From: Phytohabitans maris | GTDB taxonomy: Bacteria > Actinomycetota > Actinomycetes > Mycobacteriales > Micromonosporaceae | NCBI RefSeq assembly: GCF_031085175.1 | Contig: NZ_JAVHUY010000020.1 | Location: forward strand, 62,001-126,000 | Length of the DNA stretch: 64,000 nucleotides | Reading direction: 5' to 3' | In this document: positions 51,153 to 61,709 of the stretch, piece after piece | Layout: every line of letters starts with the position of its first letter | Numbering within the stretch: the stretch's first letter is position 1 | Program-made: the position numbers and the translations under genes | Notes under the pieces: generated by a model | Databases searched by the model: none | Told to the model about the DNA's origin: nothing | The model's input: only the letters and a program-made list of their open reading frames with translations

Positions 51153-51938
51153 ATGACACGGGTCTTGGTCACCGGGGCGTCGGACGGGCTGGGGCGGGCA
51201 CTCGCGTTCGCGCTGGCCGAGCGGGGGTACCAGCTCGTCGTGCACGGCCGCGACACCGAGCGGCTCGCCGAGGTGGCCGAGCGGACCGGCGCCCAGGCGA
51301 TCCAGGCCGACCTCGCCTCCCTCGCCGAGGTGCGCCGCCTGGCCGCCGCGGTCGAGGGCGACCTGGACGTGCTGGTCAACAACGCGGGCATCGGCTTCGG
51401 CGCACCCGGCGCACCCCGGCAGCTCTCCGCGGACGGGTACGAGCTGCGGCTGGCCGTCAACTACCTCGCGCCGTACCTGCTGACCCGGCTCCTGATCCCG
51501 CGGCTGAAGCGGTCGGCGCCGGCCCGGATCGTCAACGTGGCCTCGGTCGGGCAGCGACCCTTCGATGTGGACGATCCGATGATGGAGCGCGGCTACGACG
51601 GCACGGAGGCGTACCGGCGGGCGAAGCTGGCCCTCGTCGCGTACACCTTCGACCTGGCCGAGGAGCTGGCCGGCACCGGCGTGACCGCCAACTGCCTGCA
51701 CCCGGCGACCCTGATGCCGACGACGATGGTGCGCCAGGCCGGTACGCCCCAGGTCGACACGCTGGAGACGGGACTGCGGTCGACGCTGCGCCTCGTCGTC
51801 GACCCGGCGCTGGCGGGCGTGACCGGCCGCTACTTCGATCGCGATCGCCCGGGGCGGGCCCTGGACCAGGCGTACGACCTGGACTTTCGCAAGCGCCTGC
51901 GGGATCTCAGCGAGTCGCTGACCCGAACGCGGGGATGA
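51153..51938 (+). CDS. Short-chain dehydrogenase/reductase
   Basis: 261-residue SDR. VLVTGASDGLGRALAFALAE is the TGxxxGxG cofactor loop, DVLVNNAGIGFG the structural NNAG block, and NVASVGQRP with YRRAKLAL gives the catalytic Ser and Tyr-x-x-x-Lys. The length and the acidic residue after beta-2 (HGRDTERLAE) do not settle NAD versus NADP use. Its 3' end overlaps the convergent HD-hydrolase gene by 32 bp, so antisense pairing of the two transcripts is possible. Substrate unknown. Confidence 0.9.
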   Translation: MTRVLVTGASDGLGRALAFALAERGYQLVVHGRDTERLAEVAERTGAQAIQADLASLAEVRRLAAAVEGDLDVLVNNAGIGFGAPGAPRQLSADGYELRLAVNYLAPYLLTRLLIPRLKRSAPARIVNVASVGQRPFDVDDPMMERGYDGTEAYRRAKLALVAYTFDLAEELAGTGVTANCLHPATLMPTTMVRQAGTPQVDTLETGLRSTLRLVVDPALAGVTGRYFDRDRPGRALDQAYDLDFRKRLRDLSESLTRTRG

Positions 51939-52935
51939 GCCGAGGGCGCGGCCGGCGGACGGCGGCGGGGGCCGTCTTGACTCCCACGAAACACAGGTCG
52001 GGCTGCCGCTCGCGGACCGCGTCGATCCGCGGCTGGAAGTCGGCGGGGCTGGCCGCGGCGCCGATCCGCACCGCCCGCCGCACGAAGTCGTCTTCATCGA
52101 CGAACACGAGGTCGACGTCACCGTAGTGGGCGAGGTATCGCGGCATCACCTCGCCGCGCAGCCAGCTCGACCGGCACACGAGCTCGTTGTTGACCGGGAA
52201 GACGCGGGGGCGGATGAAGTGCGCCTTGACGCTGGCCGCGACGTCGAGCAGCCGCTCCGGCCGGTCCTGCCGCTCCAGCACCCGCCCCATCAGGTCGCGG
52301 AAGAGCCGCGCGAAGTCGGCGCGGAACGCGAGCGGATCGGGCGTGCCGGTGCCGTGGAACTCCTTGGCGAGCCGGCGGACCCGGCCCCGCCACGGCTCGG
52401 CTCGGAGCGTAAACCCGAGCACCCGGCAGACCGCGTCGGGAATGTAGTCGGGCCGCACGTTGAGCCCGGTCACGAGCAGCAGCGGGTCTTCGACCACGCC
52501 GGTGATGGCGTCGGCGCCGAGCACGATCCGCCCCTCGGCGCTCAGCTCGTCGATCCGCTTGTGGTGCACGCCCTCGATGTCGGCGAAGTCTTCGTCGGAG
52601 AGTCGGGCATCCACAAGGGACTTGCTGAAGGTGCGGGTATTGCCGGCCTGGTCGAACCACCCCACCTCGGTGTTGTGCGCGAAGGGCCAGCGGTTGAGGT
52701 CGTGGTGGAGGCAGAGCCGCACGACGCGCTCGACGTCGACTCCCGGCTGGCGCTCGGCAAGCCGCCGGGCCACCCAGGTCATGCGGCCGACGTGCCAGAT
52801 CCGCGCGAACGCCGACGAGCGGGGATCGCGCTCTTCCCCGAATACCGAAACAAAGCCCGTGATGCGACGCAACCGGCGAAGCGCTCGAACGGTGCTGTGC
52901 GCGGTGGGCGCCAGAGAAGCTGGATCGACCGTCAC
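51907..52935 (-). CDS. HD-domain hydrolase of dGTPase type
   Basis: 342-residue metal-dependent phosphohydrolase-like protein. The metal site follows the dGTP triphosphohydrolase pattern: His48 in RIWHVGRM, then HDLNRWPFAHNTE, with His78-Asp79 and His87/Glu90 at the spacing of HDxGxxPFxHxxE. The protein is shorter than typical dGTPases (400-500 residues) and its C-terminal 150 residues are unfamiliar. GTG 52935 overlaps the stop of the radical SAM gene (GTGA), with GGAGGGGG upstream. It is the last gene of a three-gene overlapping unit. Likely activity is dNTP or other nucleotide hydrolysis (inference from motif). dGTPases are known anti-phage effectors. Confidence 0.8.
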   Translation of the reverse strand: MTVDPASLAPTAHSTVRALRRLRRITGFVSVFGEERDPRSSAFARIWHVGRMTWVARRLAERQPGVDVERVVRLCLHHDLNRWPFAHNTEVGWFDQAGNTRTFSKSLVDARLSDEDFADIEGVHHKRIDELSAEGRIVLGADAITGVVEDPLLLVTGLNVRPDYIPDAVCRVLGFTLRAEPWRGRVRRLAKEFHGTGTPDPLAFRADFARLFRDLMGRVLERQDRPERLLDVAASVKAHFIRPRVFPVNNELVCRSSWLRGEVMPRYLAHYGDVDLVFVDEDDFVRRAVRIGAAASPADFQPRIDAVRERQPDLCFVGVKTAPAAVRRPRPRLIPAFGSATR

Positions 52936-54158
52936 GCCGCGAGCCCCCCTCCGGTAAACGACCCCAGCCACGCCTTCTGCCTGCGCACGCCCTGGGCTCG
53001 AACCGCCAAATGCCGGCCGTAGCCGTGCAAGAGTGTATTGTAGTCAAACTCGTCGATCATGTCATCGATCAGCAGTTTCCCCGCCGTGACCGACACCAGC
53101 CCCGGGTCGAGACCCAGGAAGGCGGCCACCCTGGCGGCCAGGGTCGCACCATCCGTCCACTCCTCGGTCAGCGCCGCCGTCGCGCAGCGTCCCCGCTGGG
53201 CGAGCGGGCAGGCGGCCGGCAGGCAGCGGTGCTCGGCGTGCGGCGGGCGCCAGGTGCCCAGCGCCTCCGGCCGGCCACCGAGGAACGCCAGCGCGCAGGA
53301 CGTGTTGCGGTACAGCGGGTAGCCGGCGGCCGCCGCGCTCTCCCGCGCCACGGCCCAGCCCTCGTCGTCGAAGACCTCCCACCGCTCCGCCGGCGCCGCC
53401 ATCGACCGGTCCAGCAGCGTGACGAGGCGCTCGTCCCACAGCGGTACCCCGGGCCCCCGGGTGAGCCCGACCGCGACGGAGGCGGACAGGCCCGACGTGG
53501 CCAGCCGCCCGACCAGCTTTTCCAGGTCGGCCCGGCTCGGCCGCAGCTCGGCCACGAACGGGCGCCAGAAATGCACCGCCTTCTGGTGGGTCGTCCGGGA
53601 GACGAGGCGGGCGTTGTCGAGCGTCGTGTCCAGGTCGGCGATGCGCCCGCGCTCCAGCGGCACCCCGGCGGGGCGGGCCATCGACTGGCTGAGGAACCAG
53701 AAGATCGGGAAGCCGGTCCGGTCGAGCGCGGCGAGCAGGTCGGGGTCGAGCCGCCCCTTGGTCACCACGACCACCGGGCGGCGCGGGATCCGCTCGGCGA
53801 GCAGCTCGACGATGCGTACCAGGGCGTCGCGGTTGGGGCGGGTGAGCACCATGTCGGTGTAGTTGCCGACGCAGAGGGGCGTCTGGTCGTACGCCGGGTC
53901 GACGACGCCCGCCCGCCGCCCACCCAGGTGGTCTTCGACGGCCGCCACCGCCATCTCCGGTGTGGCCCGCACCGCCGGCCGGGTCGCCCGCAGGCCGAGC
54001 GGGCCGAGATAGCAGTACGCGCAGTCCGCCGGGCAGCCGACGATCGGGTCCACGGTGATCCACGAGTCGTGCTCGGCCACCAGCGGGACGGCCGGCCGGG
54101 TCAGCTGGCGCCCGTCTCCTGCCACGCCTCGAAGACCGTCGTACGCGCCCTCCTGCAT
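52932..54158 (-). CDS. Radical SAM protein, spore-photoproduct-lyase-like
   Basis: 408-residue radical SAM enzyme. The [4Fe-4S]-binding motif is VGCPADCAYCYLGP (Cys42, Cys46, Cys49; CX3CX2C). The fold continues with VVVVTKGRLDPDLL and FLSQSMARP, as in SPL-like proteins. A second Cys group near the end (HRCLPAACPLAQRGRC) may hold an auxiliary cluster or zinc. ATG 54158 overlaps the upstream gene by 58 bp and follows GGAGGAG, so the two are tightly coupled; a GTG at 54125 is an alternative start. True photoproduct lyases have a different context; here the neighbours are a kinase-fold/PLD-like protein and an HD hydrolase, so the substrate is probably something else. Confidence 0.85.
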   Translation of the reverse strand: MQEGAYDGLRGVAGDGRQLTRPAVPLVAEHDSWITVDPIVGCPADCAYCYLGPLGLRATRPAVRATPEMAVAAVEDHLGGRRAGVVDPAYDQTPLCVGNYTDMVLTRPNRDALVRIVELLAERIPRRPVVVVTKGRLDPDLLAALDRTGFPIFWFLSQSMARPAGVPLERGRIADLDTTLDNARLVSRTTHQKAVHFWRPFVAELRPSRADLEKLVGRLATSGLSASVAVGLTRGPGVPLWDERLVTLLDRSMAAPAERWEVFDDEGWAVARESAAAAGYPLYRNTSCALAFLGGRPEALGTWRPPHAEHRCLPAACPLAQRGRCATAALTEEWTDGATLAARVAAFLGLDPGLVSVTAGKLLIDDMIDEFDYNTLLHGYGRHLAVRAQGVRRQKAWLGSFTGGGLAA

Positions 54159-56029
54159 CGCTCCTCCAACTGGGTCGCGTCGGTGACCGCGTCCGCGTTG
54201 TTCCAGTGGAACGAGAAGGTCTCCTCCAGCAGCCGTTTCATGTGCAGCCCACCCGGGTCGAACTGCAGCTCGAACGTGTCGAACAGCACCCGTTCGCGGC
54301 GGCTGCGCGAGGCGTGGAAGTACGGCTCGAAGAAGGAGGCCCGCTCGGTCAGCAGCACCGTGGCGCCGATGCCGAACCGGGCGAGCCTGACCTCGACCAG
54401 GCTCTTGTACTCCTCGCGGAGGATCTCGTAGCCGCGCAGGCTCGCCTCGAACTTGCGGGCCAGGTCGGCGTGGAGCTCCAGCCGGTCGGAGACCACCGAG
54501 CCCAGCCGCCGCCCGTCCGGGTCGTAGCTGGCGGAGATCCCGTACGCCTCCAGGAAGTACGGGTTGCAGATCACCATCTGGAGGCTCGCGCCGGCCCGCA
54601 GCAGGCGGACGATCCGGGAGTTGAAGACACCCCGGGTGGCCAGGTACGAGTACCCGGTCTCGGCGGTGATCCGGACGGACGCGCCACGGGCGGCGGAGGC
54701 GTGCAGCGCGGCCTCCTTGGCGCGGTTGCGCTTCTCGTTCGTCAGCAGCTCGTGGCCGTGCATCGGCACGTAGGCGGCGGTGCAGCGCAGCAAGGTCAAC
54801 GCTTCGGCGGTGGTCGATATCACTGTCTCCGGAGCGTAGCGATGACCGTCAAGCATGCGGCGCAGCGCGGTGATCATCCGGAGCAGCGAGAGCATGTCGA
54901 CGCCGGCGGCGACCGGGCCGTTGTTGGTCACCCAGCGGATCCGCTTGAGGCACTCGCTGAGCAGGAACCAGCGGTACATCATCGCCGCGCCCGGCAACGA
55001 CGTGCCGCGCAGCACCGCGCACAGCTCCTGCCGCCACATCCGCAGGCAGCGCCGGTGGCGCGGCTCTTCGGGCGAGTCGCGGAGCGCGAAGTCGTCGTCG
55101 CCGACCAGGCTGACCGTCTCCAGCAGCTCGTCCTGCACCAGCTCGGCGCTGTGCGCGTGCCGGGGCGTGGTGTGCAGCACCAGGTCGACCTCGAAGCGGG
55201 CCAGGTCTTCGAAGACGTGCGCCTGCCGCCCCTTGCCGAAGTCGATCAGGTCGACCTCGGCCCGCACGCTGTTGACCAGGATGTTGGCCAGGTGGGCGTC
55301 GCCGTGGATCAGCCGCCGGTCGGCCACCGGCGCCACCCGCACGGCCGCGGCCGCCTCCGTGTACCAGGCGCGGAAGTCGCGCAGGTCTTCGATGTCGGAC
55401 CAGAGGGCGGCGGCCGTGGTGAGGCTGGCGTTGATGTCCCGCTCCCAGTCCACGTCCGGCAGGTACTCGACGAGCGCCCGGCCCTCCTCCTCGTTCTGCA
55501 GGTCGGCGTTGCGCACCAGCAGGCTGGCCACCTTGTACAGGCAGGCGCGGACGGTACGCTCCGGCGGCGCGCTCTCCGCCGTCTGCGGCAGCGCGAACGA
55601 CTGGAGAAACCCGCCGAACTCGCTGTAGTCGGCCAGCTCGCGGTAGGTCCGGCTGCCGATGTACCGGTACGCCATCGCGCTCCAGCTCTCCGACTGGTCG
55701 CGGATCTCCACCTCGGCCGGGCCGTAGATGCCGTCGAGCTTGTTGCTGACGAGCCATTCGTCGGAGCCGAGAAACGCGGAACGGTTTTCGTGCTCCTGCC
55801 GGATCTCGCCGGTCGGGCCGCCTTTGAGGATGAACAGGCCGCGCCCCGGCGCGTACACCAGTGCGACCAGCAGGCCGCTGTATCCGCCTTGCAGCACGCG
55901 TACGTCGACCGTCCCGCGCGTTCGCGAATCACCCGGCACCTGGTCTCCCACCACCAGATGGACAAGGCGCCGGACATCGCCGGCCGCCAGTTCGGAATGC
56001 TTGCCGATCACGGTCAGCCGGGGCGGCAC
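54101..56029 (-). CDS. Kinase-fold (TCAD9-like) protein fused to a PLD-like domain
   Basis: 642-residue protein, first gene of the unit. Residues ~1-330 form an aminoglycoside-phosphotransferase-like kinase fold: a nucleotide-site Lys in LFILKGGPTG, RLIHGDAHLANILVN (catalytic Asp244) and VDLIDFGKGR (Mg-binding Asp263), then FEDLARFEVDLVLH. This matches the pattern called ternary-complex-associated domain 9 in predicted conflict systems. Residues ~435-635 resemble the catalytically inactive PLD-like sensor fold (SVRITAETGYSYLATRGVFN, LQMVICNP, FDTFELQFD, EETFSFHWNN), with no HKD motif. The GTG at 56029 is chosen for its upstream GGAG; a TTG six codons upstream also fits the frame. Substrate and partner unknown. 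Confidence 0.75.
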   Translation of the reverse strand: MPPRLTVIGKHSELAAGDVRRLVHLVVGDQVPGDSRTRGTVDVRVLQGGYSGLLVALVYAPGRGLFILKGGPTGEIRQEHENRSAFLGSDEWLVSNKLDGIYGPAEVEIRDQSESWSAMAYRYIGSRTYRELADYSEFGGFLQSFALPQTAESAPPERTVRACLYKVASLLVRNADLQNEEEGRALVEYLPDVDWERDINASLTTAAALWSDIEDLRDFRAWYTEAAAAVRVAPVADRRLIHGDAHLANILVNSVRAEVDLIDFGKGRQAHVFEDLARFEVDLVLHTTPRHAHSAELVQDELLETVSLVGDDDFALRDSPEEPRHRRCLRMWRQELCAVLRGTSLPGAAMMYRWFLLSECLKRIRWVTNNGPVAAGVDMLSLLRMITALRRMLDGHRYAPETVISTTAEALTLLRCTAAYVPMHGHELLTNEKRNRAKEAALHASAARGASVRITAETGYSYLATRGVFNSRIVRLLRAGASLQMVICNPYFLEAYGISASYDPDGRRLGSVVSDRLELHADLARKFEASLRGYEILREEYKSLVEVRLARFGIGATVLLTERASFFEPYFHASRSRRERVLFDTFELQFDPGGLHMKRLLEETFSFHWNNADAVTDATQLEERCRRARTTVFEAWQETGAS

Positions 56030-56158
56030 GAAATCTCCAGACGACAAAGAAACGAGGGGGCAGGCCCGAGCCTAGCCGCGCCCAGATTGTCTGGTCTACC
56101 GGCGCCGTGCCCGCTTCGCTACTCTGCGGGTCGGCGTACGAGGGAGGGATCGCCAACG

Positions 56159-56608
56159 ATGGGTGTGGGCGAGTGGGCGGCGTTCACGGCCGCGTTCATC
56201 AGCGGCGCGAACATCGTCGTCACCGCGCTCCTGACCCGCAGCCGCGACCGCACGAGCTGGTCCCGGGAGTCGCTGTCGGACACGCTGGTCGCCCTGCTGG
56301 AGGCGAGCTGGCGCAGCTCGGACGCGGTCCGCGAGCGGCACGAGCTCGGCCCGCGCCCGGCCGACGCGGCGCTGGCCACCCGCCTCGACGACGCGATCGA
56401 GGCCGCGTTCGCCGAGCTCCGCACCAGCCTCACCCGGCTGCGCCTCTTCGCCACCGAACGGGTCGGCGCGGCCGGCGTCGACCTGCTGATCAGCCACCGC
56501 GAGCTGCGCGACGCCGCCCTGGCCGACCAGCCGGCCGGGCTGGACGCGGTCAGCGCGGCGCGCCGCCGGCTCATCCAGGCGGCGCGCCGCGACCTCAAGA
56601 CCGACTGA
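56159..56608 (+). CDS. Small membrane-anchored helical protein, function unknown
   Basis: 149-residue protein. A single N-terminal membrane helix (WAAFTAAFISGANIVVTALL) is followed by a Ser/Arg-rich stretch and a long, mostly helical, charged region rich in Ala, Arg, Asp and Glu. ATG 56159 has GAGGGAGGG 10 nt upstream. It is divergent from the TCAD9-like gene across a 129-bp region and convergent with the cupin gene. I recognise no family. A membrane-anchored coiled-coil partner of the neighbouring system is conceivable, but this rests only on position. Confidence 0.65.
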   Translation: MGVGEWAAFTAAFISGANIVVTALLTRSRDRTSWSRESLSDTLVALLEASWRSSDAVRERHELGPRPADAALATRLDDAIEAAFAELRTSLTRLRLFATERVGAAGVDLLISHRELRDAALADQPAGLDAVSAARRRLIQAARRDLKTD

Positions 56609-56613
56609 CGGCG

Positions 56614-58353: not shown

Positions 58354-60309
58354 TTAGCGGGACACGCGGCCGCGGCGGGCTCGGATGTAGTCGTTGACGA
58401 CGTAGCTGCCCAGGTCTTCGGTGTCCGGGGTGAAGACGCGGCCGCCGCTGCGGCGGGCTACCGCGTCGACGAAGCGGCGCAGGCCGGGGTCCTCGCCGAG
58501 CATGAAGAGGTTGAGCGTGGCGCCGTAGCGGGTCAGCGCGTCCACCTCGGCCACCGTCGCCTGTACGGTCTCGGTGAGCGGAGGCCAGAAGAAGACCGCC
58601 TCGCCGTCGTCCGCCAGGTGGGCCGTGGGCTCGCCGTCGGTCACGACCAGCACCACCGGCTCGGCACCGGAGTGCTTGCGCAGGTGGCGTCCGGCGAGCT
58701 GGAGCGCGTGCTGGAGGTTGGTGCCCTGTACGTAGTCGGGCTCGACGGCGGCCAGCTCCTCGGGGGTGAGCCGCATCGCGTACCGGCCGAAGCCGATGAT
58801 CTGCAGCGCGTCCTGCGGAAACTTCGTCGCGACCAGGTGTGACAGGGCCAGCGCGGTCTGCTTCATCGGGCCCCAGCGGTCCTCGGCCACCATCGAGTAC
58901 GACAGGTCGACGCAGAGCGCGACGGCGGCCGAGGCGCGCCGTTCGGTCTCCACCACTTCGAAGTCGTCCACCTGTAGCGAGACGGGACCGGCGCCGCCGC
59001 GGCGGACCGCGTTCGTCACCGTGCGGACCACGTCGATGGGCTGCTCGTCGCCGTACTCCCAGGGGCGGGACGCGCCGGTGATCTCGCCGGCCGCGCCCGC
59101 GTCGCGGAGGTCGTGCTGGCCGCGGCGGCCGGTCTCCAGCGAGGCGAAGACGCGGCGCAGGGCGGTGCCGCCGAGCCGGCGCAGGGCCTTGGGGCTGAGC
59201 GTGAGCCCTTCCCCACCGCGGGCCAGCCAGCCCTGCCGGCGCAGCTCCCGCTCCAGCTCCTGCAGGCGCCGTACGTCGCCGGCCGCGCCCCGGCCGAGGA
59301 TCCGCTCGACCGCCTCGACGTCGATGTCGTCGAGCGTGGCACCGGGATGCTCCTGGCCCAGCTGGTCGAGCAGCTCGTCCAGGTCACCGATCTCGGCGAG
59401 CGCGCCGGCCGCCTCGCCGTACCCGAGTCCCCGCTGCCCGCGGACCTGGCTGCGCCGGTCCCAGCCCAGGTCGGGGCGGAGCGTGCGGAGGTTGGCGGTC
59501 AGCCGGGCCATCTGGTCGGCCAGGCCGGCGTTGCCGAGCGCCTGCGCCATCAGCCGGGACAGCTCCTCCTGCTGCTGCGGGGAGAGCGAACGCATGAGCC
59601 GTTCACCGGCGGCGGCGCGGCGGGCGAGCGCGTCGATCAGCTCCTCGACCGAGCCGGGCCTTTCCGGGAAGAACTCGCCGTGCCGGCGCATGAACTCGGC
59701 GAACGCGTCGGTCGTGTCCTCGCCCCGGGCGTGCCGGTCGAGCAGGTCGTTGAGGTCGCCCAGCATCTCGGCGAGGCGGCGCTGGGCGGCCGGGTCCGGG
59801 TTGCCGAGCGCCTCCCGGATGCCGGCGAAGCGCTGCTCCAGCACCTCGTTGCGCAGGCCGTCGAGGATCTGCTGGTACGTGCGGCGGGCCTCGTCGCTGG
59901 CCCATTCGTAGTCGGAGAGCTCCTCGACCGCGCGGGCGGTGGAGCGGGGCAGGCTGTCCAGCCGCGCCTCGCTGAACCGGGACGCGTCGTCGGTGCGGCG
60001 GGCCAGCTCCTCGCGTTCGGCGGCGAGGGCCTGGTCGAGCAGGGCCTGGGCCCGGGTGACGGCGCCGTCGAGGTTGCCCCGGCGCATCGCCTCGCGGCGC
60101 ATCCGCCGGGCCCGGGCGGCCAGGTCGTCGAGGCCACGGCCGCCGTCGGGACCGCGGCGCAGCAGGTTGCGCAGCGCCTCGCGCAGGCTGCCGCCGGCCA
60201 GTACCTCGGCGCCGACCTGGTCGACCGCGCCCCGCACGTCGTACGGCGGGGCGAGCGGGTCGGGCCCGCCGCGCCAGGCGCCGTACCGGAAGCGGCCCCG
60301 ACCCTTCAC
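58354..60309 (-). CDS. VWA-domain protein paired with a MoxR-type ATPase
   Basis: 651-residue protein. The N-terminal two thirds are helical with Arg/Glu/Gln-rich segments (DLDELLDQLGQEHPG, MLGDLNDLLDRHARGED) resembling the linker of ChlD/BchD-type chelatase subunits. The C-terminus is a von Willebrand factor A domain with the MIDAS motif DLSYSM (DxSxS, about residue 468) and VTDGEPT. GTG 60309 overlaps the stop of the ATPase gene (GTGA), so they are produced together. MoxR-VWA pairs act as chaperone-like metal-insertion or remodelling machines; the client is unknown. No other component is nearby, so it does not look like a conflict system in itself. Confidence 0.9.
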   Translation of the reverse strand: MKGRGRFRYGAWRGGPDPLAPPYDVRGAVDQVGAEVLAGGSLREALRNLLRRGPDGGRGLDDLAARARRMRREAMRRGNLDGAVTRAQALLDQALAAEREELARRTDDASRFSEARLDSLPRSTARAVEELSDYEWASDEARRTYQQILDGLRNEVLEQRFAGIREALGNPDPAAQRRLAEMLGDLNDLLDRHARGEDTTDAFAEFMRRHGEFFPERPGSVEELIDALARRAAAGERLMRSLSPQQQEELSRLMAQALGNAGLADQMARLTANLRTLRPDLGWDRRSQVRGQRGLGYGEAAGALAEIGDLDELLDQLGQEHPGATLDDIDVEAVERILGRGAAGDVRRLQELERELRRQGWLARGGEGLTLSPKALRRLGGTALRRVFASLETGRRGQHDLRDAGAAGEITGASRPWEYGDEQPIDVVRTVTNAVRRGGAGPVSLQVDDFEVVETERRASAAVALCVDLSYSMVAEDRWGPMKQTALALSHLVATKFPQDALQIIGFGRYAMRLTPEELAAVEPDYVQGTNLQHALQLAGRHLRKHSGAEPVVLVVTDGEPTAHLADDGEAVFFWPPLTETVQATVAEVDALTRYGATLNLFMLGEDPGLRRFVDAVARRSGGRVFTPDTEDLGSYVVNDYIRARRGRVSR

Positions 60310-61709
60310 TCGCGGCTCCCGTAGAGGGTGCGGCCCTCGTCGGTCATGGCCTTGGAGAGGCGGCGGGTCAGGTGCAGCCCCTCCAGCGCGAACTCCACGC
60401 CGGCCGCGGCCTGTGCGGCGGTGGGCGCGTCGTCGAAGCCGAGCCGCTCCAGCACCTTGGCGAGGCCGGGCACGGTGCCGACCTGGCGCAGCAGGTCTTC
60501 GGCGCCGACCAGCTCGCCGGTCTCCACGATCTCGCCCTCGGCCACCAGGTCGGTGAAGCCGGAGAGGTCGAGCCCGGCCAGCCGCGCCCGGAACGTCTCG
60601 GCGGTGGCGGTACGGAGCAGGTGGGCGAGCACCTCGACCTCGCGCCCCTCCTCGCCGCTCTCGAACTCGACCTTGCCGCGCAGCGTGCTGGTGATCGAGG
60701 CGGTGTCGCCGATCCGGGCGGTGGCGACCGGCTCGCCGAGGATGCCGGAGCGGCGCAGCGCGGACGCGGCCACCGTCTCGGCCGCCGCGATCGCGAACCG
60801 CGCGGAGACACCGGACCGCGCGTCGACCGACGGCGACTCCCGCACCCCGCGGGCGAAGCGCGCCACCACCTCGAGTACGTGGTCGGGCACCTCGGCCACG
60901 AGCCGCGCCTCCTGGCGGATCAGGTCGAGCTCCAGCTCCAGCTCCAGCGGGTAGTGGGTGCGGATCTCGGCGCCGAAGCGGTCCTTGAGCGGCGTGATGA
61001 TGCGGCCGCGGTTGGTGTAGTCCTCGGGGTTGGCGCTGGCCACGAGCAGCAGGTCGAGCGGGAGCCGCAGCTGGTAGCCGCGGACCTGGATGTCGCGCTC
61101 CTCCAGCACGTTGAGCAGGGAGACCTGGATCCGCTCGGCGAGGTCGGGCAGCTCGTTGACCGCGAAGATGCCCCGGTTGGTACGGGGTACGAGTCCGAAG
61201 TGGATGGTCTCCGGGTCGCCGAGCGTGCGGCCCTGCGCCACCCGGATCGGGTCGACGTCGCCGATGAGGTCGCCGACGCTGGTGTCCGGGGTGGCCAGCT
61301 TCTCGCCGTACCGCAGGGAGCGGTGCAGCCACCGGATCGGCAGCTCGTCGCCGAGCTCCTGCGCCTGCCGGCGGGAGGAGGGGGTGAGTGGCTCGTACGG
61401 GTGCTCGTTGAGCTCGGAGCCGGCGATGACGGGCGTCCACTCGTCGAGGAGCCCGGCCAGGGAGCGGATGACCCGGGTCTTGCCCTGGCCCCGCTCACCC
61501 AGCAGGACCATGTCGTGGCCGGCCAGGATCGCGCGCTCGACCTCGGGCAGCACCGTGTCGTCGTAGCCGACGATGCCGGGGAACCGGGGGCCGCCGTCGC
61601 GCATCCGGGCGAGGAGGTTTTCGCGAAGCTCTTCCTTGACCGTGCGGTGCCGGTGGCCACTCGCGCGGAGCGCACCGACCGTCCGAAGAGTTTCAGGCGT
61701 TGACGTCAC
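60306..61709 (-). CDS. MoxR/ChlI-type AAA+ ATPase
   Basis: 467-residue cytoplasmic ATPase. Walker A is LLGERGQGKTRV (residues 69-80). Further AAA+ features are FAVNELPDLAERIQVSLLNV (Walker B region), LVASANPEDYTNRGRI (sensor 1) and PLKDRFGAEIRTHYP, which place it in the MoxR/magnesium-chelatase subunit I clade. GTG 61709 is the first in-frame start with the family N-terminus. It precedes and overlaps the VWA gene. Function: energises the VWA partner. No regulation is visible; the upstream 420 bp serve the divergent sensor gene. Confidence 0.9.
   Translation of the reverse strand: MTSTPETLRTVGALRASGHRHRTVKEELRENLLARMRDGGPRFPGIVGYDDTVLPEVERAILAGHDMVLLGERGQGKTRVIRSLAGLLDEWTPVIAGSELNEHPYEPLTPSSRRQAQELGDELPIRWLHRSLRYGEKLATPDTSVGDLIGDVDPIRVAQGRTLGDPETIHFGLVPRTNRGIFAVNELPDLAERIQVSLLNVLEERDIQVRGYQLRLPLDLLLVASANPEDYTNRGRIITPLKDRFGAEIRTHYPLELELELDLIRQEARLVAEVPDHVLEVVARFARGVRESPSVDARSGVSARFAIAAAETVAASALRRSGILGEPVATARIGDTASITSTLRGKVEFESGEEGREVEVLAHLLRTATAETFRARLAGLDLSGFTDLVAEGEIVETGELVGAEDLLRQVGTVPGLAKVLERLGFDDAPTAAQAAAGVEFALEGLHLTRRLSKAMTDEGRTLYGSRE

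Follow-up and report, generated by a model that had tools for sequence, protein, structure and literature searches.

How cells control their nucleotide pools and nucleotide signals is a theme at the centre of antiviral immunity, and with viperin it is a modified nucleotide that serves as the antiviral product. Among the described systems closest to the locus reported here, Clover couples a dGTPase, CloA (residues H117/D118 and H126/E129), to a nucleotidyltransferase, CloB (PMC12265719). A three-gene cluster in Photorhabdus, thmA-thmB-thmC, makes 4'-thiothymidine, and thmC alone gives resistance (PMC12691670). Two further papers describe conflict systems that include APH-type kinases and a radical SAM enzyme whose presumed substrate is a peptide effector (PMC7159879) and name TCAD9 as associated with vWA-MoxR-VMAP (PMC10910872). 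Here we analyse a set of four genes, D-A-B-C, in a 64,000-nucleotide stretch of the high-GC chromosome of Phytohabitans maris (contig NZ_JAVHUY010000020.1, positions 62,001 to 126,000; "the window" is this whole stretch). The genes encode a predicted kinase with a sensor-like end (A), a radical SAM enzyme (B), a dGTPase-like HD hydrolase (C) and a small membrane protein (D).

We give about an even chance to the reading that D-A-B-C is a mobile, nucleotide-centred conflict module. The conflict setting had already been proposed in a preliminary description of the locus, and it is supported by the accessory distribution of the unit, by its lower GC content outside the genus, by a CBASS-type effector in the Glycomyces copies and by the defence-type neighbours of some members of the wider B family. 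A search of the literature that left out most subscription journals yielded no description that we recognised as having the A-B-C composition.

Gene content and distribution of the unit

The three overlapping minus-strand genes of the preliminary description are all present and intact: A (648 aa; 54101..56047), B (408 aa; 52932..54158) and C (354 aa; 51907..52971). Gene D (149 aa; 56159..56608, plus strand) is divergent from A, and the set is flanked by a cupin gene and a short-chain dehydrogenase (SDR) gene. Both overlaps that had been proposed were recovered, the one between A and B being 58 bp when counted from the ATG at 54158, and the one between B and C being 4 bp if C starts at GTG 52935 (40 bp with GTG 52971). 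Gene A is called from a TTG at 56047, while a GTG at 56029 agrees with the start in relatives; the start that would give a 4-bp overlap between A and B is a GTG in three relatives and reads CTGA in the window. Pairwise dN/dS values across four genomes are low (A 0.10-0.20, B 0.23-0.28, C 0.22-0.34, D 0.27-0.34) and comparable to those of the two flanking genes; A, B, C and D are thus real genes under purifying selection in these genomes. Rfam and tRNA scans of the window gave no match.

All four genes occur at the same place in four of the six genomes of the genus that were compared, the P. maris genome included. The other two, G031 and G077, carry none of them (for B, distant similarity only): in G031 the cupin and SDR genes are direct neighbours, the 4675 bp of the window (51939..56613) being absent, and in G077 their place is taken by a small gene that looks VOC-type by eye. 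Since D is gained or lost together with A-B-C within the genus, it is part of the unit. When a profile of A was run on 354 genomes of the family (reporting threshold E <=1e-3), 22 matches were returned, eight of them full-length, the other 14 reaching at most 32 bits and lying around the kinase motifs. B adjoins A at seven of these eight full-length loci and C at six. Among the matches listed, Planotetraspora kaengkrachanensis supplied a ninth full-length locus, complete with B and C, so that, within those matches, A and B are adjacent at 8/9 loci and the whole triad is present at 7/9. A draw of 396 genomes from the phylum held full-length A in the P. maris genome only. C was found at full strength in 4 of 121 family genomes, each time with A and B, and in the P. 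maris genome alone among 394 genomes drawn from the class. A, B and C stand in identical order in Glycomyces and Planotetraspora, at 38-49% identity to the window; because this order is found in three genera and presence within the genus is all-or-none, their linkage is more than chance. The neighbourhood survey thus favours the joint function for which the tight coupling of the genes had been taken to argue, and the opposing case, in which the three families never co-occur or are housekeeping single genes, was not borne out.

Two loci depart from this pattern. In G016, A and B are present without C, are 23-30% identical to the window proteins and lie in an island of 58% GC within a 73% GC genome, forming a differing version of the A-B core whose neighbours (L029 9400-15450) are genes for a phosphoribosyltransferase (PRTase), a methyltransferase, a PfkB kinase and a membrane protein. 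The A gene of G590 (61% GC) has neither B nor C with it and follows a sequence that resembles a tRNA by eye (L062 7590-9919); it looks like a copy that was reduced or has decayed. GC content is 0.58-0.67 in the five copies outside the genus, against 0.70-0.73 in their flanks, which suggests horizontal transfer. In P. suffuscus, two genes have been inserted between the cupin gene and D (L031 3733-7076): one of GmrSD_N/HEC-05 type, whose product matches the candidate defence family HEC-05 (E 2.6e-45), and one of ParA type; the site therefore acquires accessory genes repeatedly. Separately, near the module in G103 (L030 3167-6272) we observed a small open reading frame, a radical SAM gene (Pfam E 9e-14) and a gene for a long protein with a weak TPR match, a set that is possibly concerned with peptide maturation.

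The membrane partner differs between lineages. D, noted earlier as a small divergent membrane protein, has one hydrophobic segment, and the partner in G016 is a different one-segment protein. In both Glycomyces-type genomes that carry the triad, a TM-Sa_NUDIX gene precedes A-B-C (Pfam, L063 and L064; E ~1e-33). The L063 protein matches the PADLOC models of CBASS 2TM effectors (E 1.7e-22), and a CBASS-type effector was found in the Glycomyces-type copies only; a PDB sequence search with the same protein returned three matches at E 0.4 to 1. These copies therefore resemble CBASS in having a membrane-anchored Sa_NUDIX gene before A-B-C, but differ from it in that no match to the cyclase model was seen in 11 of the 17 called genes of L063, and the window has D in place of the NUDIX gene. 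Variable membrane proteins beside a constant core are typical of signal-effector systems; here, the link of the membrane partner to the module is positional.

The kinase, radical SAM and HD proteins

Gene A had been described as a TCAD9-like kinase-fold protein fused to an inactive phospholipase D (PLD)-like sensor. Its relatives bear out the first half of this more clearly than the window protein does: four of four scanned relatives outside the genus (G016 and three Glycomyces-type genomes, homologous to window A over the full length) score above the 40-bit cut-off of TCAD9 (PF19974; E 4e-20 to 9e-11), whereas in window A the APH family alone is above its Pfam cut-off (E 1.5e-7), with no TCAD9 match. 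The kinase part covers residues ~47-330 (55058..55909, minus strand). Within it K75, E85, HGDxxxxN (248-255) and D269 of the DFG motif are invariant in eight aligned A proteins, and HGDxxxxN and IDF[GA] are kept in 9/9. The kinase motifs thus look intact, which refines the earlier kinase-fold description, and from their invariance A is likely an active kinase.

The C-terminal part (residues ~422-620; 54188..54784, minus strand) was modelled with low confidence (mean pLDDT 50, better in blocks 440-490 and 530-570); in the PDB this model matches TrmBL2 best (E 9e-5), followed by phospholipases D (E 4e-3 and worse), all at low TM-scores. The HxKxxxxD (HKD) motif is missing in 5/5 A proteins scanned. 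The PLD-like assignment carries the low confidence of the model on which it rests; we consider a degenerate PLD-like domain probable. TrmB-type and degenerate PLD domains bind ligands.

B carries the radical SAM motif CxxxCxxC (C42, C46 and C49; 54012..54035, minus strand), which is invariant in 32 aligned relatives, and its Pfam score is below the cut-off. The predicted fold (pLDDT 76, pTM 0.82) agrees with a radical SAM enzyme, so this part of the preliminary description stands. Its comparison with viperins is not supported: although B is likewise a radical SAM enzyme, presumably with a nucleotide substrate, no PDB sequence match was found at E up to 1 and viperin was absent from the best 50 of 1419 fold matches, which gives kinship no support. 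Within the same 50, the top match is spore photoproduct lyase (SPL; E 3.9e-5), from which B nevertheless differs in TM-scores of just 0.38/0.44, in very different gene company and in four extra conserved cysteines, C288, C312, C317 and C325 (53184..53297, minus strand; at least 90% conserved in the 32 relatives), a possible second metal or Fe-S site. A tree of the 32 relatives places all seven B proteins of the module in a single clade with full support, beside which stand four HETW-type proteins (three from Streptomyces plasmids, one from a class genome). The G016 protein sits on a long branch outside both groups, and 20 YRKSG-type proteins lie apart.

C scores above the Pfam cut-off for PF01966, and the metal motif ascribed to it earlier was confirmed: HD-x7-HxxE is present with exact spacing in 7/7 C proteins (H90, D91, H99 and E102 in the window; 52666..52704, minus strand). 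A profile of C run on 394 genomes returned weak non-self matches of at most 25 bits, of which the five checked are true dGTPases; their open reading frames were taken from five of the profile loci with a motif filter, and H60, H90, D91, H99, E102 and D154 of C align with them. C thus has the HD motif, the HE dyad and the fourth metal residue of a dGTPase, and by sequence it is a divergent, remote dGTPase relative, not a member by score. A PDB sequence search with C gave one match, to a designed protein (E 0.44). Set beside Clover, the spacing of the HD motif and HE dyad equals that of H117/D118 and H126/E129 in CloA, and both loci pair an HD enzyme with a second enzyme in a context of conflict (PMC12265719). 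The differences are that C lacks a significant dGTPase family score and that its partners are a TCAD9-type kinase and a radical SAM enzyme, no nucleotidyltransferase being among the Pfam matches of A-D in the window.

A proposed conflict module and its alternatives

We infer an anti-phage role for the module, together with every catalytic step, cue and signal in the scheme that follows. The PLD/TrmB-like end of A would bind a cue, either a metabolite or a nucleotide, and so gate its TCAD9/APH-type kinase. SPL-like B would modify a nucleoside, nucleotide or short oligonucleotide through a 5'-deoxyadenosyl radical, and the kinase would phosphorylate the substrate of B, its product or a regulator. 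C would hydrolyse (d)NTPs, either as an effector that starves replication or as a brake that removes an active or self-toxic nucleotide, and the membrane protein (D in the window, TM-NUDIX in Glycomyces) may act as an effector that responds to a signal. A more specific version, which we put forward tentatively and think rather doubtful, is a nucleotide immune system free of CD-NTases, in which B would produce or erase a nucleotide signal of thymine type, A would gate that signal, C would deplete the nucleotide pool as an effector or act as the brake, and the membrane protein would read the signal. If true, this would be a branch of immunity built on SPL-type radical chemistry, within a wider mobile family that includes plasmid cassettes of radical SAM, exonuclease, kinase-like and dNTPase-type HD genes. 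Should the product of B prove to be an immune signal, there would be a plausible path to a new category of system.

Several observations weigh against a mobile conflict module. The window copy has the same GC content as its flanks, the membrane partner varies between genera and none was seen at the Planotetraspora copy. Searches of phage and plasmid collections with A, and of the plasmid collection with C, gave no match, and neither did a viral-contig collection searched with A or a phage collection searched with two B-like queries. No module protein is confidently matched by PADLOC defence models: in the window A reaches E 0.0018 at best and B and C have no match, and among relatives A of G016 reaches E 0.029, with none for A of L063 or for A and B of Planotetraspora. 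The dGTPase family score of C (NCBIfam E 0.0026) is 16.7 bits against a cut-off of 385. Given the tree position of the G016 B protein, A and B of that genome may not share the history of the window pair. Twelve further genomes among the 394 drawn from the class have B-like proteins with no A or C nearby, so the B superfamily is not confined to the module, and some plasmid cassettes of B relatives look biosynthetic.

This last point leads to the strongest rival, in which the unit is a minimal nucleoside-antimetabolite cluster: B and A would build a modified nucleoside and C, a triphosphohydrolase, would confer self-resistance. Its force comes from thmA-thmB-thmC, where the same three enzyme classes (radical SAM enzyme, kinase and nucleoside triphosphatase) suffice in variable surroundings and the triphosphatase ThmC by itself confers resistance (PMC12691670), a likeness of enzyme class. 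The PRTase, PfkB kinase and methyltransferase genes beside A-B in G016 fit it, as do the MurA-like, aldolase, uridylyltransferase and glycosyltransferase genes beside plasmid relatives of B. Against this, we recognised no transporter gene in the unit, and the TCAD9-like domain and probable PLD-like end of A and the TM-NUDIX effector gene of the Glycomyces copies, which set the module apart from thmA-C, would be left unexplained; we find such a cluster unlikely, if less so than the remaining alternatives. A combined reading is possible, in which the nucleotide modified by B would have the antiviral role directly, as the product of viperin does. A mobile unit that links radical SAM chemistry to a gated kinase and to an enzyme of dNTPase-like type would be either a new chemistry in antiviral immunity or a compact nucleoside-antimetabolite factory.

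A cassette for nucleotide or DNA repair and house-cleaning, with SPL-like B acting on damaged thymine nucleotides, by reversal or removal, and C disposing of damaged dNTPs, would suit the best fold match of B and the linkage of the wider B family to exonuclease and thymidylate enzymes. We judge it quite improbable for so rare and patchy a unit (full-length A in 8/354 family genomes), and it gives no account of a kinase with a sensor-like end or of the TM-NUDIX partner. It is very unlikely that B instead modifies a peptide, as in ribosomally synthesised and post-translationally modified peptide (RiPP)-like products or peptide effectors, within a peptide-based conflict or regulatory system: systems joining radical SAM enzymes with APH-type kinases are described (PMC7159879), B has its four extra cysteines and a very weak NCBIfam match to a peptide cyclase (E 0.053), but we recognised no precursor peptide in the unit, in which no systematic search was made, and the neighbours of the wider B family are nucleotide enzymes. 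Least probable of all, with hardly a chance in our view, is membership of a vWA-MoxR ternary conflict system together with the vWA and MoxR-like genes at 58354-61709. These lie 2.3 kb from A, and PMC10910872 associates TCAD9 with such systems; yet the pair is 86-93% conserved in G031 and G077, both without the module, no similar gene was found (blastp 1e-3) around the G016, Glycomyces-type or Planotetraspora copies, and the bpMoxR score in the window is below the cut-off. We rejected the pair as a partner because genomes of the genus keep it whether or not they carry the module. In G590, a gene that looks MoxR-like by eye is found 6.7 kb from A.

The wider radical SAM family

Beyond the module, relatives of B are found in the company of nucleotide enzymes. 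Within 4 kb of B at 23 YRKSG-type loci (19 genome loci and four plasmids), a DEDD 3'-5' exonuclease gene is present at 22, a thymidylate-kinase-like ATPase at 12, a nucleoside diphosphate kinase (NDK) at 10 and a thymidylate synthase at 11; as the reference proteins came partly from the same loci, the counts give presence and are not an independent test. Three of the loci are partial or split and stand outside the 32-relative tree, L093 and L099 being typed YRKSG by motif and L102 by neighbours only. The thymidylate-kinase label comes from Pfam for L095 (E 5e-29), and the plasmid versions in L139 and L154 match AAA_28. Nine B-like loci in a collection of putative viral contigs show the same company (exonuclease at nine, kinase-like gene, NDK and thymidylate synthase at seven each). 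From this company, our best guess is that B has a nucleotide substrate.

At three of 11 plasmid regions opened (L141 Rhizobium, L153 Labrenzia and L154 Sinorhizobium), an HD gene follows the kinase-like gene, completing a mobile cassette of SPL-like radical SAM enzyme, DEDD exonuclease, AAA_28/thymidylate-kinase-like ATPase and HD protein. The HD proteins, which look SAMHD1-like, match dGTPase models weakly (E 1.5e-8 to 4.5e-6). These cassettes resemble the module in joining a related radical SAM enzyme to a dNTPase-type HD protein, and differ in having no A and an HD protein of another subfamily; a profile comparison with C was not significant (E 0.22), and we therefore claim no shared descent with that subfamily. 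dNTPase-type HD enzymes have joined this radical SAM family more than once. The cassette is possibly an undescribed conflict system of its own. L139 and L155 have the same cassette without a following HD gene.

The surroundings of these plasmid relatives are mixed. Cassettes adjoin CBASS, ABC-three-component, VapC or DNA methylase genes; that of Sinorhizobium follows a CBASS operon (phospholipase effector, cyclase, E1-E2) with one small gene between. An Agrobacterium region has an anti-phage dGTPase gene (E 1e-146) 2.2 kb upstream and TIR and WYL genes downstream, and seven other regions lack such an HD gene, some having toxin-antitoxin genes and others looking biosynthetic. On Streptomyces plasmids, HETW-type relatives stand beside aldolase and MurA-like genes (L137, L138) or beside dCTP/cytidine deaminase, uridylyltransferase, glycosyltransferase and HAD genes (L143), sets that look like nucleoside biosynthesis. 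As the wider family occurs on plasmids of actinomycetes, alphaproteobacteria and Nostoc, many relatives are available for testing. The P. maris genome itself holds a second B-like gene (L105 3966-7735), in a cassette of glycosyltransferase-like, thymidylate synthase, NDK and radical SAM genes followed by an exonuclease match, and similar sets were seen at L097, L099, L100, L106, L107 and L109-L111.

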